Assembly (NCBI GenBank): GCA_015680905.1
Contig: CM027382.1
Coordinates: forward strand, 5,270,001-5,334,000
DNA length: 64,000 nucleotides
Reading direction: 5' to 3'
From: Coptis chinensis
Taxonomy: Eukaryota; Streptophyta; Magnoliopsida; Ranunculales; Ranunculaceae
Shown here: piece by piece, positions 19,996 to 60,200 of the stretch
Numbering within the stretch: the first letter of the stretch is position 1
Layout of the letters: the number at the start of each line of letters is the position of its first letter
Program-made: the position numbers and the translations under genes
The notes under the pieces: model-generated
Told to the model about the DNA's origin: nothing
Databases searched by the model: none
What the model saw: the letters and a program-made list of their open reading frames with translations, nothing else

Positions 19996-20065
<70 letters not shown>
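19777..20065. repeat. UGT upstream region with a 41-bp tandem duplication and (TA)n
   Basis: The motif CAAGCCCGATGGACTAAAAC, continuing to a short TA run, occurs twice in tandem (about 19925-20005, unit near 41 bp). The second copy runs into a TA microsatellite (19998-20065) that abuts the Mutator-like element, so that element appears to sit in or beside TA repeats. Confidence 0.75.
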
Positions 20066-20067
<2 letters not shown>

Positions 20068-21183
20068 TGATTTTGCTCTAGTCGGGACTTCCCTGGATAA
20101 AAAAAACTTCCTGACCAAACAAATTATATTCACGCATTTTTTTTCTTTTCTCTCAACTTTTTTTCTCCAACCCCACCTTTTCTCTTTTTCCCATAAATTC
20201 ATGCTCTCTCTCTCTCTCTCTCTCTTAAAACCACATCCCCTTAAGAAACAAAAAAAAAAAAAGACAATATATGATAAAGCGCACACATGAGTAGATAGAT
20301 AAACAATTAATAAATTTAACACATCAAGGAAAAATCGCTCAAGATGTCAAAAAGATTTGAAGATGAGAAGTCATACATCTTTGCTTTTGTCTATCTCTGG
20401 GGCACAATCCATCCATTGGTGCCAAACATGGCATTTGTAGGATATCTTGATAGTGTTTCAAACCTTCATTTAGTCGAAGCTTCGATGCAAATGGTTGGCA
20501 CGATTACTTGATAATCAATTCAATCTCCCAACAATTGAACATGCTCGAAAGTAAACCAAAAAGGAGGAGAAGGTCATGCAAAAAAACGACCAGATTTTAT
20601 AAGAGGCATTGCATCTCAACTTTTTTTTTACTTCAATTTCGATAACTTGGAATTACAACTCTTGGCACAAAATCGACCAAAAACGTGTTTATTCTATATG
20701 TTTGATTGATGTTAAGACAATTGAAAGGAACAACATTATCATCATCATGAATTAAAGATCTCCTCCATCCGCGGTTTTACGGGGAGCATGGTTCTATTTA
20801 CGCCCTAATCGAAATCAAGGACGCCATGCAAGATGTGTGGAGCATTTGCACGCCTTCACAAATGAATCGATGGAGCCCATCCCCGCATGAAGCGGAAACT
20901 TGTCTCGGAGATGATAGAAGACGACTTCGAGCATTGTAGCCATACTCTAAGCAAATCTCAAATTGTCGGTCAACCTTTTTGGTATAGTTGGTCACAATTT
21001 GATCATAAAATCAAATTGCATCTCAACTTTTAGTATCAACCATAGTGGCGAGATATGCAAAGAAATGGGTTGGGGATTTTGAAGGAAGAAAAATTGGTTA
21101 TTAGAAGCCTTCAGTCCTTACAAGAACGGGACTACATAGAGAAGAAATTATTATATGTACAGTCTCTATATTAGCAACGACAG
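20066..21183 (+). repeat. Left terminal inverted arm of the Mutator-like element
   Basis: It pairs in inverse orientation with 27503-29345 from the outer end to the inner CTCTATATTAGCAACGACAG edge. It has a CT-rich block (20,200-20,225) complementary to the GA-rich block of the right arm. A 55-codon frame at 20343-20510 (MSKRFEDEKSYIF...) is partly shared by the other arm and has no recognised function. At about 21,017-21,026 it lacks the 0.7-kb nucleoporin-like segment present in the right arm. Confidence 0.85.
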
Positions 21184-22629
21184 AAATTTGAAGGTCAATG
21201 AAGGAACTACCTGGAGGGCCGATAATGGTGCCAGTCCACGATCTCATAAATATGTCATCACCATCATCCATTCCATAGCTAACTGTTCCATCCCCAATTC
21301 CTTTCTCCCCCCTCTCAAGTTCCTTGAGTAATCTGAAATTTCTAGGAACTGCAAATGACCAATGCACATTCACCTACTACATACTCTTATAGGAAAATAT
21401 GCTCTTATAGGAAAATATGCGGATCAAAATATCAAAGACTGATTGGTATCTAACAATGAAATGACCAAATTTACTACATAAGAGAACCGGTATCTTGACT
21501 CTTTAGCTCACATTTCTCAATTCTTTAGTTCCCACAACAGTAGTAAATTAAGAAACAACACAAGCTTATAATTACTTTGCTTTGTTTTTTTATCTACGAA
21601 TTCTACCAAAAAAAAATAGGTGAGATTATTTCCTAGTGTTGGAAAATAATGTGGAATTTGGTTATATAAGGGCATACTCTTAACACTTTATCCACCCAGT
21701 TCTCATTATAAAGGAATTAGGATTATAAACAAGTAACTCTGGTTCCAGAGCATACCTCTGATTTTTCTATAAGGGGAAGAGTGGTAAAAGTAAGAGAGTT
21801 GAGAGTTCTGTAATTGAGAAAGGAGATAGTGAGTTGTTCTTTCTAGACAATCCAACATGGAAGAGAAACATAGTAAGCAAGTTTTGGATTTGAGGCCTTG
21901 CTTGCAACTAAGTGATTGTGCTTACAGCATAACATTGTTACCCATGAGCTCGAGGGTCTAAAAGCATAGATTTTTTGATGCGTTAAGCTAGTTTGTGTTT
22001 TATTAAAGCTTGTATGCTCAACAACCACTCATAAATTCAACCACGCACAATCATAGGACGAATGCACCACATTCTGAACATTGAACAATCATAAGACAAA
22101 CGAACACAGGTGGAAGTCTTCTAGTACATCAAGTGGACCATCAAATTTTCATGAAAATACAATCATAATATAAAAAATTTGAATAAATATTGCATAAATT
22201 TGAATTATAAACCTAAACAAGGGCATAACGAGTAAATCAACTTTACAAAACTAATAGAAGGACATCAAATTTCAATAGCGTAAATTAAACTAGAATCACG
22301 AAGTTGCTATTATTAATGAGCCCATGATGAAAACACATACTAAAGAATAGTGCTAATTCTAGCTCTCTAACCCCATTTAATTTACCGATCGAAGAAAAAA
22401 ACTACTAACTCCATTTCACAAATGGATAAGCCACCATTCACTATATGGTCCACTCAAGGCAAGCGCTCAACTTCTCGAGGTCAAGAGTTACCAAAACCAT
22501 CACCGGACTTTGAGTGTCGAGTTGAACCTATAATGACCAATATTTAGCTCAAGACAAATAAAAAATAAAAATAAAAGAGTATGTATTAAATAAAAATAGT
22601 AAGCAATCGAACATTACCAATCAACTTCT
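21184..22629. other. Non-coding interior of the Mutator-like element
   Basis: AT-rich sequence with no recognisable protein. A segment at 21637-21857 begins TGTTGGA and ends TCCAACA and contains TATATAAGG, so it could be a small solo LTR, but no matching target duplication flanks it. The minus-strand frames here have no recognised similarity. Confidence 0.5.
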
Positions 22630-24250
22630 GACAGTTTCTTTTGTCATGTGATTGCCCAAGAAGTCCACATCCATTACAACGCCTTTAGTTGACTTGCTTG
22701 AACCTGTGCCTTCTCTTTTCCCCCTGTAATCTATGTTTTCCACGCCTTTTGCTCTAACAGATTAGGCTCATTCAAAGTCACATGTCGATCGCGTTTTTTT
22801 TGTTGGAGAAATTTCAACTCCTTTAATAGCCAGCACTTCCTTAATCTTTTCATGTACCACTTTCAAATGTTCTTCATATACTTCACTTGCCTCTTCACAA
22901 ACTACAACGTCATCAAGTACCCTTGAAGTAAGATGAGATAATTTTGTGTGCCTCAACAACATAAAGTTGTTACTATTTTCTTTCACTTCTTTCCCACCAT
23001 CTGTTAGTATTTCTTCCAATTTTGTGTCTTTCCTCCATCTACTTAGTATATAAGCATCCGGTAAGTAAACAATTTGACTAACTTTCAAGTAAGCCAAAAT
23101 GTGTCTACAAGGAATTCCTTCAAATTCAAATTTCTTGCAGCTACAGGTAGCAAAATTTAGAGCCATATCATATACAACTTTTTGCGGTCTAGAATCTTTT
23201 GCACTTGGCCTTTTCACCATGTAGACAACTTGCTTTTCATTATCTACTGAACTTTCAATAAAGTACTCCAAACTCTCCCACAACTCATTCTGAAATCTAA
23301 GAAAAATAGACAATGTATAAATATCTGCCATCTGTTTCTCTATAGAAATTGGGGTTTTCATCACAGGACGCTCATTGCTATCAACATGATCAGCTTGCAA
23401 TTCTTTATGACGTTGGTATTCAAGTGCCCTATTAAATCGCGTAACAAATTCATTTAAAGAATTTTCCTTAGAGATATACCTCTTGAAAAATGCATGTGAA
23501 CTTTCTGCCCTTTGACTACTTGACATGCCGGCAGCAAAAATATGTTTCACAAATGACGGAACCCACCTAGACCGCATACCATACAAAGCGGCTAACCAAG
23601 TGTTATCTTTTAGTTCGCTTTTCCCTATTGTATCTTACCACATTGCCTCAAACTCTTCCCCAAACTCTGTATTCCAAATGCATTTTTGAAACGCAGTATA
23701 GTGATCTCTATAAATGATTGCATCCAATTTTTCGTAAAAACTTGTTCGAGGAATATGCCAAATGCAAGATCGATGATATGTATTTGGAAGAGCTTGAGCA
23801 ATAGCTTTTGACATAGCAGGGGTCTTGATCGTGATAATCATTTTGGGAGGGCCAACCGACATTACTTCCATCCATTTTGGAGTAGCCAAATAAATGATTC
23901 TCATAGCCTCGTCACACGAATGCACAACCAAATATTACTGATCAAGCGATGTTTATTCACCCCTACAAATGGTGCAAATATCATACCATACTTATTGGTT
24001 TTGTAGGTTGTATCAAACACTACTACATCACCGGTAAAAGCTTGTATGCGCCCTTATTGCCTTTGCATCACCCCGAAAACAATGAGTCAACCTATTTTCG
24101 TCACGGTCTCGGTTTTGAAAGAAAATGAAGAATTCTTTTCTTGCTCGACAAAAAATATTCCATCAATATCTCATCGTGCCCATCTACTAAGCTCTTTGAA
24201 TCTCTAACAAAATTTCTAAGGTCTTTTTTTCAGACAACCAATATTTTCTA
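22630..24250 (-). pseudogene. FAR1-related MULE transposase, decayed
   Basis: Read right to left. The frame VVVFDTTYKTNKYGMIF near 24020-23970 carries the first catalytic Asp of the MULE DDE domain. Next come QALPNTYHRSCIWHI and EFGEEFEAMW (23931-23635), then a long intact piece (23586-22768) with RSRWVPSFVKHIF and RAESSHAFFKR. The SWIM zinc finger is CSCKKFEFEGIPCRH. Further downstream a separate frame has a zinc knuckle CNGCGLLGQSHDKRNC (about 22679-22632). The expected second catalytic motif TDQDP reads as TIKTP through a compensated frame change near 23830, and stops and frame changes break the N-terminal half. No N-terminal FAR1 DNA-binding domain was recognised. Plant FAR1/FHY3 regulators share this ancestry, but the decay and the TIR context argue for a transposase. 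Confidence 0.8.
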
Positions 24251-24855
24251 TTCCACCCGCTTCCATTGAAAGAATACTAATTTGTCGGGTTTATAGGTAT
24301 ATTAGCGGATGATAAAAGATTAGACAATGACTTTTTTGTATCGATATCATTACTACTGAGATCTTAATAGATGTACTTTATGAGGGGTCGAAAGTGAATG
24401 GTTATGGACCTCGATAAATTGGTCGACGTTGTAACCCGACTTCAATTTATTCTTCAAAACTCCACAATTTTGCCTTGCAACCCTCACCAATCCCCGACGC
24501 CTTTTCTTTTCTCTCTCATTTTTCTCGTTTAGGTTTCCCCTCTTTGAAACAACAATACTCCTTCCTAGTTATTTCATTGCCTTCTTTATCTCTTTTAGTA
24601 GAATTACTTCAGATATTAAATCCAAACCACTTTTGCATAATTGTTGTAAAATTCATAAGCTTCATCCAAAGAGTGAAATTCTTGTCCTATTTTTTAGTTT
24701 GCAATCCTCTCTTTTACTTGCATATAAACCATATCGACTGCGAGTCTAAATGTTCAAACTCCATATCCATTCAATAGATGCTACACATGCATGACAATTT
24801 CAAAATATGAGCAAAATTATAATTAGTTGGCATTTAATAATAATTTTTGATAAAT

Positions 24856-24934
<79 letters not shown>

Positions 24935-25440
24935 TGAACATACCATTTCAATATGTTAAAAAAACGAAATATAATTAATTAGCATTTAATAATAAATATT
25001 TGAGAAAAAAAAAAACAGGGAAAAAATTGAGCGTACCAGTGTACTGATACTGAAAAGCAAATGTAGTCTAGCGTTGGCCAATTTGTTCCAGGTTGGAACT
25101 CTCTTAAAAAATGAAAAAAGTGTGGTGGTGATATTGAGGTGAGAGTGTGAAGGTGGGGTAGGAAGTTGAGAGTGCGGATAAAAGAATTAAGATAGAGAGA
25201 GAGGAGAGAGGCGTGAGAAGCAAAATTGGAGAGAGAGTGTGTGGGGTCAAACAAAATTAATAAAGTGGTGAAATAAAATGGAAAGAGAGAAGAGAGAATA
25301 AAAAATGGGCTGAGTTCACATGAAATAAAGTGGAAAGAGAGTGTGTGGGGGTAAGAATGGAGAGAGAGAGAGATAGAGGAGAGAGAACATGAATTTGTGG
25401 AAAGAGAATAGCATGAATTTTAGAATAAGCATACAAAGTA
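24251..25440. other. Interior of the Mutator-like element: TA repeat and GA-rich tract
   Basis: Contains a TA microsatellite (24859-24931) and a purine-rich stretch (about 25,120-25,410) with many GAGAGA runs. One segment near 25,370-25,410 (GAGAGAACATGAATTTGTGG then AAAGAGAA) closely resembles a block of both terminal arms, for example 29,190-29,225, and looks like a partial third copy. The open frames here come from simple sequence and have no protein similarity. Confidence 0.6.
24859..24931. repeat. (TA)n microsatellite
   Basis: About 36 TA units inside the Mutator-like element. Confidence 0.95.
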
Positions 25441-25454
25441 TGTGTGTGTAGTGT

Positions 25455-25754
25455 CATGGTTTGTTTTTCTCCAAGTTAGACTTCAAACCGAGTTTGCACT
25501 CAACGTACCGGTCAAAATTCCGATAGTAGTTCAACGGTCCAGCAAAGCCTTTCTGCTCAAATTTGCTAGCATAATAGTTAACGTCTTCCGCCAACAACCA
25601 AGAAGGAAGGAGGGGAGTAATGGTTCCAACTATTCCCTTGGGCAATATAGCCGGGACACGACGCGGAGATGTCAAAAAATTCGGACAAGTGTTGGGTGTT
25701 AACTTGAGAAAACTTAGCTTCCATAACTCCCCGGTTCCTGCACTTCACACCTGA
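25455..25754 (-). pseudogene. Captured fragment of a soluble epoxide hydrolase gene
   Basis: Two minus-strand frame pieces match the cap region of plant soluble epoxide hydrolases, alpha/beta-hydrolases that open epoxides. The first reads GVMEAKFSQVNTQHLSEFF (about 25720-25660), matching the family's ExEFxxxxT block. The second reads LLPSWLLAEDVNYYASKFEQ and then GFAGPLNYYRNFD (about 25612-25510), matching the LPSWLSEEDxxYYxxxFxxxGFxGxxNYYR signature. A frame change joins them, and the conserved NWELxAPW continuation is absent. The minus strand has TTTCAG immediately before the first piece (near 25755), like a splice acceptor, which suggests a genomic exon was captured. It lies inside the Mutator-like element and covers about 90 of roughly 315 residues, so it is a fragment and not a gene. 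Confidence 0.65.
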
Positions 25755-26496
25755 AATTTGTCGAGGAGGAACCCTATCGGTAAAAGAGGTCAGCTATCTC
25801 AAGAGAAATTATATGCAAATCAAGAAATGTGAAGTTTCAAATCTTTCAATTAACTTAAAGATAATATTCAATGTATGTTTCCCGGCGCACAAATCCTAGT
25901 GAGATAGGTTTCAGATATAGTTAAAGCATAAGCAATTGAAACTTACACATCGGGCATTTAACACAAAAAAGGTAGATCAACAATTGAAATATAAGTTAAA
26001 GGACAATTTATCACTATGTCCTGTTTCTTTCAAGTGGTAGTCTGTGAGTGGGATGATGTACGAGTCACTTAAACAAAGAGCACCCAAAACCTGCCGGGAG
26101 ATGGTGGTGAAACTCTAAAAGGTTGGGATTTTTCAATTTTGTGTTTGGTTGTCTTTTCTAAATGAAACCACGCATGTAACCCCATTGTAATTGACTTTTG
26201 AGAATGGTAGAGCAAAATTTTGAAACGCAAAGCAAGTGAATTTCTTTCTTTTCCTTCGTAACTTAGTGATCGGAGTTGTAATCGCTGAATTTTGTGGATT
26301 CACTTTCGCAAATCCATCCGATCCCCAATTCATTCATTCTTCCGCTTAGCCAAAGCTAAAGCTAGCCTTCCACCACCAAAGAGCCTATGAATGCCATGGA
26401 ATTCCTCCTCGTGGCTATCTTAATTGCGGATTCTGTAAGACCGTGGTCAATCAGTCCCTCTGTAAGAAGAACAGTGCTTATTCCGCCAACAGCTTA
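25755..26496. other. Interior of the Mutator-like element, unidentified
   Basis: No clear protein match. A plus-strand frame near 26,380-26,490 reads YECHGIPPRGYLNCGFC and continues with further cysteines before it is cut by the PIF/Harbinger-like insertion. It could be another captured piece but I do not recognise it. Confidence 0.4.
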
Positions 26497-27196
26497 GGGG
26501 TCGTTTGTTTTTCGAGCCTATGAATGCTTTGAATCTTTGAATCTTTGAATGACTCATCCTCCTCAATCTTTGATTCTTGATTCTTTGAATTCTAAAAACA
26601 TATTTGTTTTCTGTTAAAATAACACAGCTCAAGAAATTTGAATATAAATCATTCGGACAATTTTACTCATGCTATCTATTTTAAACACTAACTTGATTTC
26701 TTGTTAAACAAAATATATATTATATTTGAGGAGAAGAGATGGATTATCGAAAAAAATAAATGATAAATAAATTTATTTATTTAAAATATGCTTTCACAAA
26801 TATATTTTAACGGTTTATTTTCATATTTTGTTTATTTTTAGAATATATATATATATGTAATTCTATTTTTAACAAAGTGGATATCATTCACCCAAAAAAA
26901 TGAAAAAACCCGTGACGCCAACATCAAATTTTGAAGCCATAAAAGTCAAGGTAGGAAAGTAGATGGGTTCTTAAGATTGGGTTCTTAAGAAAAGGCAAGA
27001 AGGGACTTTCTTGTTTCAAGTATTAGAATTCAAAGATTCAAGAAAAATTTTGGTCTTTGAATCTTTGAATGCTAAAAGTACAACCCCAATGCTTAAACTA
27101 CTTTAAAAAAAAACAAACAAGTTTTGAACCTCTGAATGCTTAAAACTTAAGTTTAAGAGGCTCTGAATGCTGAATTCAAAAAAAACAAACAACCCC
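26497..27196. mobile_element. PIF/Harbinger-like non-autonomous element
   Basis: A 700-bp insertion flanked by the 3-bp duplication TTA (26494-26496 and 27197-27199). The terminal inverted repeats are GGGGTCGTTTGTTTTT and the complement of GGGGTTGTTTGTTTTT. The TTA duplication and GGGG-start ends fit PIF/Harbinger Tourist-like elements. Inside, both halves share GAATCTTTGAATGC-type motifs in inverted arrangement. No transposase is encoded. It lies within the Mutator-like element and is therefore younger than that element's interior. Confidence 0.8.
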
Positions 27197-27502
27197 TTAG
27201 TCTGTGCATGAATGTGCAGCCTATGGATTTGTAAATTATGGGGTTTTGGATTCTAGAATACACAATACTTCCTCTCTTTCCAACATGTCTCTAACTCTCT
27301 ACTCTACACATGCATTCCTTCTTTCTTACTCATAATTTTACTTTGCCATTTAGTGTCTTTTGAAAACCTTGATGTCATTGCTCACAGCCCTACATCTTCA
27401 AGATGTTTTAGCAATAAAATCATAACCACTGCTTTTGTCCAGTATACATCTCACAGCATAGTTGTTTTTGTTGATAGAACCATCCTTGGTTTATTTGCCG
27501 GT

Positions 27503-29345
27503 CTGTCGTTGCTAATATAGAGACTATACATATAATAATTTCTTCTCTATGTAGTCCTGGTTATTGTAAGGACTGAAGGCTTCTAATAACCAATTTTTCT
27601 TCCTCCAAAATCCCCAACCCATTTCTTTGCATATCTCGCCACTATGGTTGATACTAAAAGTTGAGATCTTGATCGACGAGAATTCTTACCCCGCACCGAC
27701 TCATCGTTGTTGCGCGATCTCTACCAAAAATTATGTCAAATGTGCATGATTTCTTTGTTCATGTAGCTGCCAAGGTGGAGAGTCTTCATCAGTACATTGA
27801 ATCTATGAAAACAGCTTATCTTGTCGACCCGGTAATTGATGCTAATGATCCATTTCTTGAGGCGCATTGGGGAATTGGCCAAACAGAAGTTTTCCAACCT
27901 TGCATTTGCCTTCAATGCCACAACCATCTACTCAAGGTGCTTTGGCTTATTTTCAAGTCGCCTATGGCGATTACATCAAACACTCCGCAACTACCATCCG
28001 CATCATCACGGAAGTGGGTTTTCACTATTTAATACATCGTCTTCTACTCTGTCATCCTCGATGTTTTCAACTCCATCGATGGTTGCTCGGTGTCCTCCCT
28101 TTTGGATCATCACGCTAGAATGCCCCAATCTTCAATTTTTGGGACTCCACCAACATCTTTGTTTGGGTCTACAACGGCACCTTCCGCATTTAGCACTCCG
28201 GCCTTTGGTTCAACCAATCGGGAACTCACTTTTTTCAACACCATCCTTCGTCGATCGTCCATCGGTTGGGTGCGGACCAAGCTTTGGGATTGTATCTAAA
28301 GCTTCCCAGCCAAAATCTCGCTTACTAAAGTCAAATCTTGTGAAGCCATCAAAACCGGTGGCGAATCAAGGATCGATCGCTTATTGATTTTATGATCAAA
28401 TTGTGACCAACTATTTCCCACGACCAAAAAAGGCCGACAATTTGAGATTTGCTTAGAGTATGGCTACAATGCTCGAAGTCGCCTTCTATCATCTCCGAGA
28501 CAAGTTTCCGCTTCATGCGGGATGGGCTCCATCGATTAGTTTCAAATGCTCCACACATCTTGCATGCGTCCTTGATTCGATTTCGACAGATTAAACGGTT
28601 TCGATAGAACCATGCTCCTATAAACTGCGGATGGAGGAGATCTTTAATTCATGATGATGATAATGTTGTTCCTTTCAATTGTCTTAACATCAATCAAACA
28701 TGTAGAATAAACACGCGTTTTTCGATTCGATTTTGTGCCAAGAGTTGTAATTCCAAGTTATCGAAATTGAAGTAAAAAGAAAAAGTTGAGATGCAATGCC
28801 TCTTATAAAATCTGGTCGTTTTTGCATGACCTTCTCCTCCTTGCTTGGTTTTGCTTTCGAGCATGTTCGAATTGTTGGGAGATTGAATTGATTATCAAGT
28901 AATCATGCCAACCATTTGCATTGAAGCTCGGCTAAATGAAGGTTTGAAACACTATCAAGATATCCTACAAATGCCATGTTTGGCACCAATGGATGGATTG
29001 TTGCCCCGAGATAGACAAAAGCAAAGATGTATGACTTCTCATCTTCAAATCTTTTTGACATCTTGAACGATTTTTCCTTGATGTGTTAAATTTATTAACC
29101 TGTTTATCTATCTACTCTGTGTGTATGTTTATCATATATTGTCTTCCTTTTTTTTTTTCTTAATGGGGTTTGGGGTTTAGAGAGAGAGAGGAGAGAGAGC
29201 ATGAATTTATGGAAAGAGAAGAGAGAGAAAAGGTGGGGTTGGAGAAAAAAGTGGAGAGAAAAGAAAGAGAAAAAAAAAGTCACGTAAATTTGTTTGGTCC
29301 GGAAGTTTTTTTATCCGGGAAAGTCCTGACTAGAGCAAAACTGAT
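27503..29345 (-). repeat. Right terminal inverted arm of the Mutator-like element
   Basis: Inverse counterpart of 20066-21183. Similarity runs from the inner edge CTGTCGTTGCTAATATAGAG to about 27666, is interrupted by a segment absent from the left arm (about 27667-28382), and resumes to the outer edge at 29345. It ends in a short TA repeat (about 29344-29363). Confidence 0.85.
27667..28382 (+). pseudogene. Captured FG-nucleoporin fragment, NUP58-like
   Basis: A gene fragment found only in the right arm. The plus-strand frame from about 27721 reads LPKIMSNVHDFFVHVAAKVE followed by SLHQYIESMKTAYL, resembling the coiled-coil part of plant NUP58, a central-channel nucleoporin. In shifted frames it continues FPTLHLPSMPQPSTQ, then GSGFSLFNTSSSTLSSSMFS, then SSIFGTPPTSLFGSTTAPSA and FSTPSF. 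These are FG and FxTP repeats typical of the C-terminal half. It ends near SKASQPKSR. At least three frame changes and no visible start make it non-functional. No obvious intron interrupts the run, so it may derive from a single large exon or from spliced RNA. The FG-nucleoporin origin is fairly sure; NUP58 rather than another FG protein is inferred from the HDFF/LHQYIE block. Confidence 0.6.
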
Positions 29346-30838
29346 ATATATATATATATATATGATAGCCGGGTATTTAGGAACCCCTCTCCACTAGCGA
29401 GTAGGCAATTTGTAATCCCTATAGTTGCTCAATTTTGAAACACCTCACTCACAAAAATTATAACAAACCTCCTATTAATTAATAATTTAGAAAAGCCTCC
29501 CTAATATCACTTAAATTATATAATTATCCCTAATTATTAATAACATAATTATTCCGTATTAAAAAAATAGATGAGCTTTTCCTACATAATTACAATTACC
29601 AATTACAATTAGAATCCAAAAAAATCATGTTAACTATGAACTCGAGAGACGGGTTTTAAGACTTTAAGACTTTAGGGAAAAAAAAAAAAAAAAACAATGC
29701 GCAGCTTGGTTTGCATACTTGTATATATATATATAACAAAATTCAAACCCGACTTGGTTTTAGGTTGGGCTCATGTTAGAATATCCAAAAACCAAAAAAC
29801 TCGAGCCTGTATACGTATATCTTTCAATTTTTCTATTCTTGTAAAAAATAAAATTGAGAATCTCTATTTTAGAGAGAATAATGTAATCAATCATTTTCAA
29901 ATAATCAAATCTCTTTGATTTCATTAGAAGATTTCAATTTCGGTGTTTTTTACCTCCTAATTCTAAAAAAAACCCGAGAAATTTGACCAACCCGACATAA
30001 CCCAACCCAACCCAAATTAGTCAGGCTAGAACTTGGGCTGAAAATTCAAAAACCAACTAGGACTTGGTCCCAGACTCAAGTTGAAACATGAGTTGGGCTC
30101 GAATTATGCCTTAACCCAACCTGCGGGCGTTGCACCCTAGTTGGGTGCACTCGGCCTAATCATTGTCTAGGTGACTAGGTCAAACAATTAAACAGAGCTT
30201 TTGTCTAGTCTTCAAGTGCGTTAAAAATAGACTCTATTGTCTTCAAGTGCGCGCCTTCGCCCTTCCAACTAGGCAAGATTTTTAGGCAGATCTGCTATTA
30301 AGTACTAACTACAAAAGTCACTGGCCCTCCAAAACTTCGAACAGTCTCCTTCCGTAACCGCGTTAAGCGTAAGACAGATGAGCAATACAAAGCATATCAA
30401 GTGCAACTTTGATAAAGATTTCATCGGCAGCCTAAGAACACTTGAAAATTATGATGACAAAGGTAGAACATCGAACAATCACCAAACATTTTCAGAGATT
30501 ACATCGAACAAAAAGTGTAGCTAAGATTAGTATTAAGATTAATGAGCGGACAACCTACTATGGACAGAATTAGAAAGAGGTGCATTCCAATAGTATGCCA
30601 GGGACACCATTGGTTTCAACACAACGTTCGTATAATGCCATTTGATTTTTCCAAATTGTAGGATGTAGACGCTCATCGTAGTGGAGGAAACATATGCAGG
30701 ATGTACATTTTCCCGTGCAGTCTTTAGAAATTGTCAGCTCGAGGGTAACATAGTTCTTTGGTCTTCATCTTTTCTCAAAAGATCAAGCATTTCCAAACAT
30801 CTTGAAATCACATCATGTCCTCCATGCACATTCTTCTT
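29346..30838. other. gene-free stretch downstream of the RecQ gene
   Basis: AT-rich DNA between the Mutator-like element and the last RecQ exon. It should include the RecQ 3' untranslated region (30838 downwards). A poly(A) run at about 29679-29694 and short GGGTTGGGT-like motifs (30,000-30,140) are the only notable simple features. No gene was recognised. Confidence 0.55.
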
Positions 30839-53939: not shown

Positions 53940-56900
53940 AACCACCCAAAGACATTTTGCTTGTCCTCGAACAAATATGAAAATTAGAATAAGTGACCAA
54001 AATGGAGTTCTAACTACTCTCGTTTTAGCTGAGTCGCGATTGCATTGACCATATGCAACAAGGCCTTAAACCACTAGGAATTCCCTAGTGGGCGAGTTAT
54101 AACCTCGTGAGAGTTTTCGATGAAGGTACTCACAAACTTCATCTATACTTCTGGCGACTAAGAAAATAAAACTATTGTTTCCTTATTCATGCTCAACTAT
54201 CTATACATCTCTCTAGCAATTACATAAGAATAACCCGGTCAAAACCCTAAGTTAATATATGCATAATAATCAATCATCTACAATAAACATATATCTGAAT
54301 GAGTAAATACTATCAAATGTTTAGCGGGTTTGTTTTCGAGAACTTCGGAATAAGCGTCCTTAAATAGGTTCTCACAATAATAGTCAAGAAACAACACTCT
54401 GATTTTTGCACTCAAGTTTATTTACTCCGATTAATGCGATGGGCACACTTTACCTTACAATCTCAATGACAACAAGGAAGGCGGGGTCGATCAAACACAT
54501 CTGCCACTTACTATCACACTAACCTATTCCTAATTGAGCTAGAGGTCTTTATTAGGTGTTTCACGGGGATTAGGAGATGGTTTAAGAAGGAAGGAAATGG
54601 ATATTCAAAAGGACAAGTCCGAGATAATAGAGTCTTAGTATTATGTAACTTAGAAAAACCTTGTTATTTTCTTTTTGCTTCTATACTTTGTTTCCATCCT
54701 TAGCCATATTTTTTTTTTTTCTTTGGCTTTTGACTCCACTTTTATTCTATTTTTTTTGGAGTTTTTATTTTATTTCTATTTTTCTTTTTCTTTGGATGGA
54801 AACTTCTTTTCTTTATTTTCTGAAGCAACTAACAATTTTTTTTTTTACCGCGTGGTTTTTCTCTTCTTCTTTCTCCACTCATTCTATTCTCGGACTTATT
54901 CTAAATTGGGTAGGTTGATTTATTCTCTTTTTTTTTATTTTGTTTTCGTTTTTGTAGCGGGGGTAAAGGAATTGTGGTTTATGGAAGGGCTAATGAAAGG
55001 CTCGAGTGGCGACTAGCGGAAAATAATTCATAGGTTTGAATTTCGGCTATATCGATCCAAAGAGCGGCCTAAATTCTCACTTAGGATATGGTTTAGTGAT
55101 CAAGCAAGTGGGCGTGTGATTTCTCTATCCGGTTTTTACTTCTCCCTTGTGTGTCATTTCTCAAATGTTTAGCTCATATAAGGCTTTTAGGCTATATTCT
55201 CCACGAGGATTTGTAGAATAAGTACTCTAGCCTAGATTTGAAAACTTATCTGCTAACAATCATAGATACTCATGTAATATATTTATAGATAGATGCAAAG
55301 ATTATTACCTACATTATTAACCTAAGTTTCTAACAATTATTACGATCAACAACTATGTGAGACTTCTAGATTGTTAAGAGCATGGAGAAAGAAAACAATA
55401 CCAATATTCCTAAGTGTATAGCATAAACTTATTTATTTATATTTTTAAAATTTTTAACTTGAAAACAAATGCATATTATACATATCTATATCCTAACAGA
55501 TGTCTTAATTACACGTGTTTCTATGCCCCCCCCCAAACAAGAAACATGCTTTGTCCTCAAAGCATTTAAATAAAGAGGGTAGGAAAAATACCATTGAAGC
55601 GCGTGAAATTCAGAAACATCTGCAAAACAAGGTTAGAACGTACTAATATAGGAAATAAAAACTGACGCAACGCTATAAGAGTTCCACCCATTATGGGGTT
55701 AACAGAATGAAATTGCTTGGGACATAAGCAGACACTAACAGAAACTAAAACTTACCTCCACTCCCGGACATGCATATTATCTACCCAATAGCATCATGGG
55801 TCTTGTATTTCAGCGGGCATGGCAAGTCCAAGAACAATTGCTAGCAAGACCCATAAGCGGTTCCTAGCCTACGTGTGTGATCACCTCACGAAACCAAGCA
55901 CCATAAGTAGTGCTTTGGAACAAATCTTTGAAAAGACTGTTCTGGTATTATTATAGGAGATGTCATCTCAACATTACGCTCTGGAATAGCTATGAATGAT
56001 CACGGAAACTACCCGTAGAAAACTGGAATTTTTCTGGTCCACGGAAGTCGGTGCTGGCCTTCATATAGAGCGCGAAGTCAGCTCTGAAATTTTAAATTCC
56101 AGTGTTTTAGCGCGGTCGCTCAACTTGGCGCGGGCGCTCTAGGTCGATGATAGATGAGGCCGTAGTCGCTTCGGCTTGAAGCGGGCCTTCGAGCAAAATT
56201 CAGAACAAAAATATACTGAGCGAGTGCGCTCTGTAGAAAGCTCGAGAATCTTCGGGTGCTTCTTTGCTGAAATTGAAAATTGAGGCGAAGCGTGGGAGTG
56301 AAAGGTGAGTGATGGAAGTTAGGTGTAGTGTAGGTTGTGAGTGTAGAATGAATGAAGTTTATATAAAATCATCTTTGGAATAGATAACACCACCCCAAAC
56401 AGTTTGGGAAGGTGGGATCAACATTAACTAATCAATGATAATGAAAATAACGACATTATATTCATATTGTCATTCAAACAACATTTCACTACAAAAGTCA
56501 AAATTAACTACGAATTTTAACAACGTAATATCCTATCTACTAAAAATAATAAAAGACAACATCAAAACAACATACAAGGAGAAATCTAGCTACTCTTCAA
56601 GGGGCGAGGTGGGGGTAAGAATAGGAATTTAAGTGATCAAGAATGGAAAAACCAAACACCCCACCCCCAAACAAATTTTTGAAAACGAGGGTTTGTAAAA
56701 TTTGTTTTAAAAAATCCGGTCTTTTAAAGTCATTCGAGACTTGCTAGATTACTATTTTTATATATCTTTAAACTTTTTACTTTTTATGAATTAGGTTTAA
56801 TATAAAGGAAAACAATAGCGATAAAGACATAATTCACACCATAGAAAACATGACTCAAAACCGAGAAAACATGCAAGAGTGGAAAACGTGAATTATGTGA

Positions 56901-57789
56901 AGCGTGGACTTAGGATCCGGTACTTACAGCCACACACTCCATAGGGAGGGCCGGTTACCTGAATGGTGCACTCAATAATATATTGAAATGAAAGGAAGTG
57001 CACCAAACACAAAATTGAGTCGTTTATAGTCGGATACTTTCGAGACTTTATCTAAACATATGTATGAACATGCGGTTTATCATATATCAACAACCGGAAT
57101 AGTTGTGGATCGTTCCATAAATAAATATCACAGAAAACATATCCAAACACAATCAAGCACCAAGATTTCCTCTGGCCGACCTAGTGGAATGAAAGCGAAG
57201 TCGAATAGACCTATAACATAACCGAGCATGCACCTTATGTTTCATCTTTGAGCGAGAGGGTGTCCTAGTGAATAAGTGTGGAAAAGTGAATGGTTGTGGA
57301 AGATATGGTGGATTGGGATAAGTTTTAGAGGGAGAGCATGGAAAAAATGAGGATGTGGGTTTAGCACAAAACTTCATTCATGGTGTAGTTAGGGGGATTT
57401 GTCTCAAGTCTGAAAATGAAGGTGTCAAGTGGTTTATCCTTGGGAAGTATTTGTTTACTAGGTGGATTTAAAAATCATGAAGCACGGGAGAAACTAAAGG
57501 ATCGAGTGCAAACTTCGAGGTTCCTTTGAAAAGGTGGAGGGTGGGGAATATTGGTGATGGAAGGTGAATGATTCTCATTTAAAAGCTCGAGTCCATATCA
57601 TCGAAATCTTGATATATGCAAGACATTCCTCAATAGGTGGGTCAAAAGGATCAACTTTGGGATAAAGATTGAAAAATTCATCTTCCGTCATAGCATCAAG
57701 GGATGAATGGTTGTTGGCAAGGGGACTTCGCGAAGTGGTAAAGAAGTGGTGCAAAAGAGTTGCGGGAATTCTTCTTCGATTTAAATCTA
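53940..57789. other. Non-coding interior of the Athila-like element
   Basis: No pol domain was recognised in any frame. It contains a T-rich tract (54,661-54,960), GC-richer GCGCGG/GCTC-type repeats (about 56,030-56,290), and three minus-strand purine-rich tracts (53,940-53,985, 55,528-55,570 and 56,640-56,690), each of the TTTGGG(G) kind seen at Ty3/gypsy polypurine sites. Confidence 0.6.
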
Positions 57790-60200
57790 CTACCGAGTCA
57801 TTGTTAAAGTCGAATTTCCGAAGGAAAGGAATTTGTTAAAATTGTTTCTCGGAAACATGTTTTTGAAGTAATCTTGAGCTAAGCTCTCGATCATGCTAAC
57901 CTCTCCATGTGTAGATGAATCGGGATCTTTGTGTCCTAGTTTTAAAACATTTACCTCAACGAAAAAGATGGCCAAAGGACAAGGACATCGAACCATCGCG
58001 GCGGTTTATGAGCGTTGGAAGTAGCCAAAAAGGCGCCCTAAAATGATAGGTGCAGTCGTTAGTGACTTACGTATCGAGGATAACGAAGTCGGTTTTGGGT
58101 AGTAAAAATTTTGGACTTTAACCAAAGCGTTCTCCACCACACCCTTAGGATACTTAATAGACCGTCGACTAATTGCAACGTCATTTTAGTAGGTTGCATC
58201 TCCTCTAGACCTATTTGTTTATACAAATAAAATGGGAGTAAGTTAACACTAGCCCCCGTCTAATAAGCGTTACCGCGTCGTGTGAGAATCTCTAAGGTGC
58301 ATTGTATGCGATGGGGCGACCGGGGTCCTTGTACTTAACAATTCCATTATTTTCGGATAAGCGTTGGGAATTGTTACGTTAAAAAGCGTCTTTTGGTATA
58401 TTGGTCTTCGCCTAGTAGTACCACAACTCCTTAAGAAACTTAGCATGGTGTGGTAGCTTTTAATAGCCGAAAAGGGAAGGTTTATAGTTAGATTTTTGAA
58501 AACGTTCCTAATCTCCTCATAATTTGTATCCCTAGTTAACATGGCTAATTTTTTTGGGGAAGCGGTGTTTTCTCTCTAATTAGCATATGAATCAACGGGG
58601 ATGTTTAACCTTGGCTTTTGTTTCTTAGGTTGTGGTTTAAGCTGGTACCTCTACGGTTGTAGGTTCTTGGGTTTCTATTTCGGTATCTAGTTCGATATCC
58701 GTTGTAGAAGTCTTGATGGGGTAACTATAGGCATAGTTACTTTGTTATCAACCACTCTTCGAGCGGAGTGGTGATGGCATTTAGCTTCACCTCGTTTGTA
58801 GTTTCCGTTACTAGTATTACCGTTTACCTCAAAGGCTGTGTTTGTTTGTTCTAGGGTTGGGTATCGCGGCACGGAAACACGCCTTTTGGTTGGAAACTTT
58901 CTCTTGGGCTAGCTGTTGGTTTAAATTATTAACAGTTGTAGAATGTGTTGGTTAGATTGAGCCATGGTTTGGAAAAGTTGTTGGCTCACTTGTATGAAGG
59001 TGTCAAGGCGATCCGGTTGTGTGGGTGTAATAGTCACGGGTGGTGTGGTGGAACTATGTCGCGTTGATTATTTATAGGCCGGTTGTGATAGTTATTATTT
59101 ACGGAGCGATACCTTTATTAGCATTATAATTATTATAACTATATTGACCTTGTGCTTGACCTTGTCGAGGGTTGTGCTTGGTTGTTATAATTATTATAAT
59201 TACCACGACCACAATCCTTGTCTGGAGGAGCTTGGTTATAAGCGTGTGTTGGCCTAACATATTGATTATTGTACCACGGAGGTGTGACTTGTTGGTTATT
59301 TCTCCAACCGAAGTTGGGATTTTGTCTCCAAGGCGTTAGGTTCACTATTAATAGAACAAGAATGTTCATAGGCTATAGGGCCGATTAAGTCGGGATGCTT
59401 TCGGGGACTCAACCGAAACTACATGGATTTGAATTTACATTCATGGCGGGGATAGGCTTTTGTTGTACGAGAAATGGCCTCAACCTTTTTAGTTAGAGAT
59501 TCGATTAAATTTTTAAGTTCTAGATCGGGTTTAACCTCAAACATACTTGGTAGCCTTAAGCGTGGAAGAAGAACTAGCGGAGCCGGGAGTAATCGTCACT
59601 ACCCCGGTTGTTATTTAAACTTAGTTTGATCCTCTAAAATTTGTAAGCCTCATTGGCTCCTTTACTTAGAAACTACCCCCATTCATAATGTCAAGGACTT
59701 CTTTATGGTGATGTTGAAGTCCTTTGAAAAACCCGCGAACTAACGTGTCTTTTGCTAGGTTATGGTGTGGACACTCTATAAGCGGTCGGTGAAAGCGATT
59801 CCAAGCCTCGAAAAATGATTCATGAGGATTTTGTCGAAAAAAATGAATCTTGGAAAGCATCTCATCCGTCTTTAGGGGTGGGTAAAATGTTCCATAAACA
59901 AATGAACAAGTTTAGCCCAGTCCACAGAATTAGGTAACTTGGGCGGTTAACCAAGGCGCCGCCTTATCATTAAGGTGAAGGGAAATACCACCGGTTTAAT
60001 GCATTCCGTACCAGCGGTAGGATGATGGAATGTTGTAAGGACTTGTTCAATCCCTACGTGTGTTGGTAAGGTTTTCATGGTCTAGACCATGGAAAAGCGG
60101 ATAACAATTAAATATGTTTGGGGAATTGAAAATCCCCGTTAGATTACTAGCTAAACGATGCAAGATTTAGGGCTATCGCTCAAAGCTTTATAAAAGTCGA
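57790..60200 (-). pseudogene. Gag and protease-like remains of the Athila-like element
   Basis: Read right to left. Gag fragments include RQNPHESFFEAWNRFHRPL and CPHHNLAKDTLVRGFFKGL (59860-59666), the capsid pattern of Athila-type gag. An Asn/Gln-rich region with NPNFGWRNNQQVTPPWYNNQ (59369-59139) follows. Further down, 58542-58270 and 57996-57790 hold weak protease-region matches (CPLAIFF..., GEVSMIESLAQDYF). It is heavily broken, with no continuous gag frame. Confidence 0.65.

Follow-up and report, generated by a model that had tools for sequence, protein, structure and literature searches.

The 64,000-nucleotide window analysed here (Coptis chinensis assembly GCA_015680905.1, contig CM027382.1, positions 5,270,001 to 5,334,000 of the forward strand) contains a 9.3-kb unit that is, as read from its domain profiles and shared terminal inverted repeats (TIRs), one copy of a Mutator-like element (MULE) of the FAR1/Jittery type. 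Our overall reading, in which we have high confidence, is that of a MULE that targets (TA)n, joins a transposase region to two genomic captures of host genes and to a retrocopy of NUP58 in its arms, and has spread in such units. Its parts, in coordinates of the window, are as follows.

20067–29343, no strand assigned: whole element, inserted in (TA)n, with termini CTGATTTTGCTCTAGTC on the left and ...GACTAGAGCAAAACTG on the right
20067–21184, plus strand: left arm, an inverted match to the right arm
up to ~20225, left arm: family TIR core
up to 20624, left arm: shared subterminal block
20610–20624 and 21017–21031, left arm: copies of the target-site duplication
20625–21014, left arm: 3' part of the NUP58 retrocopy
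up to 21184, left arm: second subterminal block
21212–22333, minus strand: exon and intron sequence from a UEV1/MMS2-type ubiquitin E2 variant gene, aligning with indels to L017/L018 on C38
22334–24870, minus strand: FAR1/MULE/SWIM transposase region, its frame broken as assembled
24920–25411, minus strand: sequence upstream of the transposase, grading into old right subterminal sequence; 25367–25408 repeats arm sequence
25416–26086, minus strand: part of an epoxide hydrolase gene, comprising one exon and intron sequence on either side of it; donor L030 on C5
26087–26496, no strand assigned: segment common to L011 and L014, and partly to L016 and L023
26497–27196, no strand assigned: later, high-copy insertion with a TTA target duplication and inverted ends GGGGTCGTTTG/CAAACAACCCC, absent from L011 and L014
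27197–27501, no strand assigned: continuation of the segment at 26087–26496
27502–29343, minus strand: right arm, an inverted copy of the left arm with a longer NUP58 retrocopy within it
27656–27670, minus strand: inner copy of the target-site duplication in the right arm, its far end altered
27675–28780, plus strand: NUP58 processed retrocopy in the right arm, three introns gone, 5'-truncated, with a short A-rich tail at 28775–28780
28781–28795, minus strand: outer copy of the target-site duplication in the right arm, TGCATCTCAACTTTT, 15 bp

The arms align in two blocks, both well above chance: 20043–21014 with the reverse complement of 28384–29367 (88.6%), and 21020–21184 with that of 27502–27667 (97.0%), in agreement with the arms of 1.1 and 1.8 kb given in a preliminary description of this DNA. 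The right-arm blocks are separated by 716 bp (27668–28383) of nucleoporin sequence that has no counterpart in the left arm. Reverse-complemented, the right terminus reads CAGTTTTGCTCTAGTC, and both ends run outward into (TA)n; the unit first bounded at 20066 and 29345 is thus real, with termini better set at ~20067 and ~29343, inside the repeat. Within the transposase region, Pfam profiles identify SWIM (PF04434, 1.1e-9) and MULE (PF10551, 2.5e-8) in separate minus-strand frames, and NCBIfam returned no match for the transposase frame or for the NUP58 exon submitted.

NUP58 mRNA gave rise to the nucleoporin piece, a 5'-truncated retrocopy that landed within an inverted arm and is now present in both. 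Positions 27675–28774 correspond to a single host gene on C6 (L019/L029), in which the matching sequence is spread over four blocks; an exon of this donor matches NUP58 of the solved structure 9sob at 3.4e-41. At the three junctions, donor introns of ~6.5, 0.46 and 0.2 kb are missing, and the exon borders of the donor carry GT and AG. The copy begins mid-exon and runs past the stop codons in the last donor block that it matches. Intron loss, 5' truncation, an A-rich tail and a target duplication form the standard signature of retroposition by the machinery of long interspersed nuclear elements (LINEs), and a LINE reverse transcriptase probably made this copy. In L009 and L010, the retrocopy is flanked by two copies of TGCATCTCAACTTTT; the empty site, a single TGCATCTCAACTTTT with no insert, occurs in L016 and, once per arm, in L011 and L014 (five arms in three copies), differing by one base in the right arm of L011. 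The right arm of the window element carries 1.1 kb of the retrocopy and the left arm just its 3' 0.4 kb, and L015 has retrocopy pieces on both sides. With CG and CHG columns masked, the NUP58 pieces of five copies lie 0.3–2.0% from the donor and 0.6–3.0% from each other, a low divergence suggesting that the insertion is not much older than the spread of the copies.

The two other host pieces are genomic captures. The UEV1/MMS2 piece, which had previously gone unnoticed, as had the TTA-flanked insertion at 26497–27196, matches the solved structure 1j74 at 1.7e-18. The epoxide-hydrolase exon piece, already recognised before, is confirmed as genomic by its flanking introns; its top solved-structure match stands at 1.2e-12, and its masked divergence from the C5 locus is 0.6–1.9%. 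Pfam gave no match for the UEV1, epoxide-hydrolase or nucleoporin pieces. The window, L011 and L014 share the epoxide-hydrolase piece. Another family member, L020 (1122–2689; 1.6 kb), has both TIRs and no transposase match, and is interrupted by an insert with a 9-bp overlap. It covers a different part of the same epoxide-hydrolase gene (donor positions 1020–1844, against 1434–2109 for the window), so that this gene may have been taken more than once.

A search of the 936-Mb genome for the same termini, with comparison of their cargo, located copies on other chromosomes. The left arm has at least 53 matches (40 of 97 candidates scored); at least 11 of its matches exceed 300 bp besides the window's own two arms, at nine other loci. 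The right terminus has at least 52 matches (40 of 134 candidates scored), and the terminal inverted repeats are common to family copies. Six other copies span 21185–22767 over its full length at 94–95%, the transposase end of that stretch (from ~22334) occurs at more than 20 further places, and the NUP58 piece is present in five other elements. Since the same termini and cargo recur elsewhere, the element moved as a unit with its cargo, and the combination of a transposase-bearing MULE with host gene pieces in the preliminary description is borne out.

Mapping 19 loci onto the window revealed how these copies are built. Four loci, L009, L010, L012 and L013, combine a nucleoporin piece in a long left arm with the UEV1 piece and the transposase region; on the right, a short TIR occurs in L009, L012 and L013, and none matched in the stretch of L010 examined. 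In L011 and L014, both arms are shortish and free of nucleoporin sequence, and the UEV1, transposase and epoxide-hydrolase sequences are all present. Matches in L021 to L027 cover the transposase region and not the UEV1 piece. In a tree of the interior, the window, L011 and L014 separate from L009, L010, L012 and L013 with a support of 0.999; in a tree of the transposase alone, the group of window, L011 and L014 reaches just 0.679, and L021 joins it at 0.917.

Besides the window and its six close copies, at least one more element has host sequence beside a retained transposase region. L023, which forms one element with L024 and has both TIRs in view, carries prefoldin-alpha on the 3' side of the transposase (Pfam 3e-25), as does L026 (3.9e-23), an element whose left end is unseen. 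L021, whose left end is likewise unseen, contains an ABC-transporter piece close by, at 3.8e-4, below the cut-off. The prefoldin-alpha frames beside the MULE transposase are open (L023:2997–3416 and L026:5518–6045), and the N-terminus of the L023 prefoldin differs (MNWGSDGFA...), as if fused to a piece that is also present in the window at ~26306–26333.

The family inserts into (TA)n repeats. We examined 39 family ends, 20 from right-terminus matches (two further ends omitted) and 19 others, excluding the degraded-looking ends of L011 and L013 from the count; an array on C7 accounts for some of those examined. Outside 28 of the 39 ends, a run of pure TA of 12 bp or more lies within ~70 bp, and seven more have 10 bp, bringing the number to 35 of 39; the ends without such TA are L044, L050, the left end of L020, and L021. 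As a control, 52 of 20,000 random 91-bp stretches from the window and 11 loci reach 12 bp of TA. The repeat adjoining L014 is the end of another repeated unit with at least 43 matches (40 of 751 candidates scored), copies of which in L035, L037 and L040 run into (TA)n without this MULE.

Two of these neighbourhoods are arrays or resemble them. On C2 (72492314–72504199; L036/L038), L014 sits in an array in which a TA-flanked repeat of ~4.7 kb ends in (TA)n where the MULE starts, and the far side of this repeat abuts, across (TA)n, sequence resembling the flank of L012. On C7 (93487616–93490167 and 93585166), same-strand termini lie ~1.2 kb apart with near-identical flanks (L042, L051, L060), and L041 has the same flank, as in a tandem array or segmental duplication.

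The broken transposase frame had been taken as a sign of decay. The domains are there, but the decay is only partly shown, the frameshifts clustering at CAG/CTG in a manner that suggests assembly error. We think that the apparent decay is in part real C-to-T loss and in part miscalled methylated CHG sites. The density of CAG/CTG in the right arm is 8.7 per kb for the window and 25.0 for the corresponding arm of L009. The window retains 10 of the 47 CAG/CTG sites in that arm of L009, while five other triplet pairs are kept at 66–88%. In the transposase region, 48 of 65 CAG/CTG sites are changed in the window; a CpG arises at 19 of the changed sites, and C>T or G>A accounts for 17. In L014, L011, L021 and L026, CpG gains number just 0–2, and C>T or G>A makes up 10 of 12, 7 of 9, 13 of 18 and 11 of 21 changed CAG/CTG sites, respectively. 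Miscalled methylated CHG in a long-read consensus might explain the CpG gains, which deamination does not produce. Modified bases are reported, in the portion of the source available, to make basecalling harder, with plant data showing lower quality scores (PMC7501810); a literature search on nanopore CHG miscalling in assemblies found no direct statement.

Short frameshift indels, scored against the column majority in the transposase region, point in the same direction. Their numbers, with those touching CAG/CTG in brackets, are 31 (16) in the window, 28 (9) in L010, 16 (5) in L013, 11 (4) in L012, 11 (6) in L022, 11 (4) in L025, 7 (3) in L009, 7 (3) in L027, 7 (1) in L011, 4 (0) in L021, 3 (0) in L014 and 2 (0) in L026; the split into artefact-like and clean copies that was tested was chosen after these numbers were seen. 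The 16 of 31 window indels at CAG/CTG compare with 12.4% of columns lying within one base of such sites (1.5e-7 in a rough test).

The alternative, that transposase and arms are truly and heavily decayed and that the CHG pattern is natural mutation, seems to us unlikely, although it retains some force. The C>T and G>A changes among altered CAG/CTG sites (17 of 48 in the window, 10 of 12 in L014) are what deamination of methylated C predicts, and in the copies with few CpG gains (L014, L011, L021 and L026) the rate of change at CAG/CTG sites is 2.5 to 4.1 times that at other bases. It does not account for the CpG gained at 19 of 48 changed window sites or for the concentration of indels at CAG/CTG, and the window's two arms, with CG and CHG columns masked, are only 0.9–2.3% apart in the three blocks compared. 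A mixture of real loss and miscalling remains our preference. The gene of AutoMuTAnT, a related transposase, has five exons according to the part of its account at hand (PMC4486113), so a split frame alone is no proof of decay, since introns may split it; from these frames we would claim neither activity nor death of the window transposase. An earlier suggestion that capture preceded decay fits in its order: L014 shares the UEV1 and epoxide-hydrolase cargo, yet short frameshift indels in this region number 3 there against 31 in the window.

Another account would have all host pieces captured by MULE gap repair as in Pack-MULEs, with NUP58 taken from spliced cDNA. The UEV1 and epoxide-hydrolase pieces, genomic and placed between the arms, would suit it, as would L020, a 1.6-kb member that lacks any transposase match, has pieces of that same epoxide-hydrolase gene and fits the description of a Pack-MULE better than the window element does. 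For the nucleoporin piece, capture by the element had been assumed before. We reject a Pack-MULE-like capture there on account of the 3' A-rich tail, the piece's own 15-bp target duplication and the empty sites in L011, L014 and L016, and consider gap repair as the source of all the cargo highly improbable. An ordinary segmental inverted duplication around unrelated repeats could by local duplication produce long arms containing a gene piece, but other chromosomes carry copies that share the termini, arms, interior and cargo, and most family ends lie in (TA)n, so that we reject it with near certainty.

Several points weigh against reading the locus as a (TA)n-targeting MULE that gathered host sequence, spread it and was in part miscalled. 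The UEV1 locus on C38 is 3.2–4.5% (masked) from copies that differ from each other by 0.9–1.4%, so the true donor may be another locus; UEV1 either entered before the copies separated or came from a relative of the C38 locus. The interior tree (0.999) places the NUP58-bearing window with the retrocopy-free L011 and L014, and this conflict requires at least one transfer, between elements or arms, or a precise loss. For that event we would prefer gene conversion, which the arm blocks are too alike to resolve. The 9-bp target duplication is unreadable within TA repeats, and the flanks are mostly (TA)n. A genome search for the donor of 26087–26490 returned, outside the family, just two short matches, on C26 and C3. 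The FAR1 match (PF03101, 2.6e-5), in its own minus-strand frame, scores 25.3 bits, under the Pfam curated cut-off of 28.1, and a single intact transposase frame is absent from the 13 copies listed, some of them partial. Finally, retention of CCG/CGG sites in the window arm is low as well (12 of 22).

On the reading we prefer, the history would begin with a FAR1/Jittery-type MULE family with TIRs of ~150–330 bp inserting in (TA)n, probably through ordinary transposase-made cut and paste. One lineage would have gained genomic UEV1 between the left arm and the 3' end of the transposase region, and a sub-lineage would have added epoxide-hydrolase sequence on the opposite flank of the transposase. 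NUP58 mRNA, probably through a LINE-type machine whose hallmarks are present along with the empty sites, would have been retroposed once into the subterminal arm, carried there as part of the long inverted repeat, and passed to the other arm when the inverted arms underwent gene conversion or aberrant repair. The transposase-plus-cargo units, whose copies we observe, would have been duplicated to several places, and the window copy would later have received the insertion at 26497–27196, which we take to be a Harbinger/Tourist-like miniature inverted-repeat transposable element. Such a sequence of events would amount to a second route of acquisition, in which an mRNA retrocopy lands in a long TIR, is copied to the opposite arm and spreads in the TIR of a transposase-bearing element, the inverted repeat rather than the interior serving as cargo hold; on this generalisation we are evenly divided. 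LINE-type processed retrocopies are spliced and 5'-truncated, with an A-rich tail and a 15-bp duplication, as here; unlike them, the NUP58 piece lies within the inverted arm of a DNA transposon, has multiplied with that arm and occurs in both arms.

Comparison with known systems, based on the portions of the cited accounts available to us, places the novelty in this retrocopy-in-TIR route. TA targeting and MULE stacking are already published (PMC4486113, PMC5907723). The MuTAnT/AutoMuTAnT elements of Medicago truncatula share with the present family a Jittery-like transposase, TIRs, insertion into (TA)n and mostly unreadable target duplications (PMC4486113). Compared by eye, the MuTAnT TIR mask GGGGTTTGCTAGAACA and the CAGTTTTGCTCTAGTC found here suggest a separate family with a similar manner of insertion, and AutoMuTAnT measures 4.9 kb against 9.3 kb, with no host gene cargo mentioned in that part of its account. 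The SaTar/AgS-MULE elements of guayule and rice show microsatellite-targeted stacking in arrays, like L014 abutting a TA-flanked repeat; as far as the accessible text goes, transposase-plus-host-gene units such as those seen here are not described for them (PMC5907723). Pack-MULEs resemble our element in carrying host gene pieces between TIRs, and differ from it in being defined, in the excerpts available, as lacking the transposase that is present here (PMC6446971, PMC3310237).

Host fragments, earlier described as rare for FAR1/Jittery-type MULEs, have precedents in them: Jittery-like and MuDR-like MULEs of grapevine and melon combine, like ours, transposase and host-derived sequence in one element (PMC2528002). 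Their cargo is a ULP domain and not UEV1, epoxide hydrolase or NUP58, and the available part of that account describes no retrocopy in an arm. A literature search including the accessible portion of a review (PMC13317346) found no processed retrocopy within MULE inverted arms that then multiplied. The unusual part is thus the retrocopy's route, Jittery-type MULEs with host pieces and TA targeting being already known.

The locus presents one element fed by both genomic capture and retroposition while keeping its transposase region, and its relatives help to establish the order of events. With NUP58 sequence in both arms, the piece could be transcribed in both senses, which may yield hairpin RNA against the parent NUP58. 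The assembled sequence also advises caution, as miscalled bases may underlie the frame decay and arm divergence read from methylated plant repeats.

Elsewhere in the window, at 56001–60000, CAG/CTG falls to 6.0 per kb and CCG/CGG rises to 19.2 per kb, as in the element; this is perhaps another methylated repeat with miscalled CHG sites.

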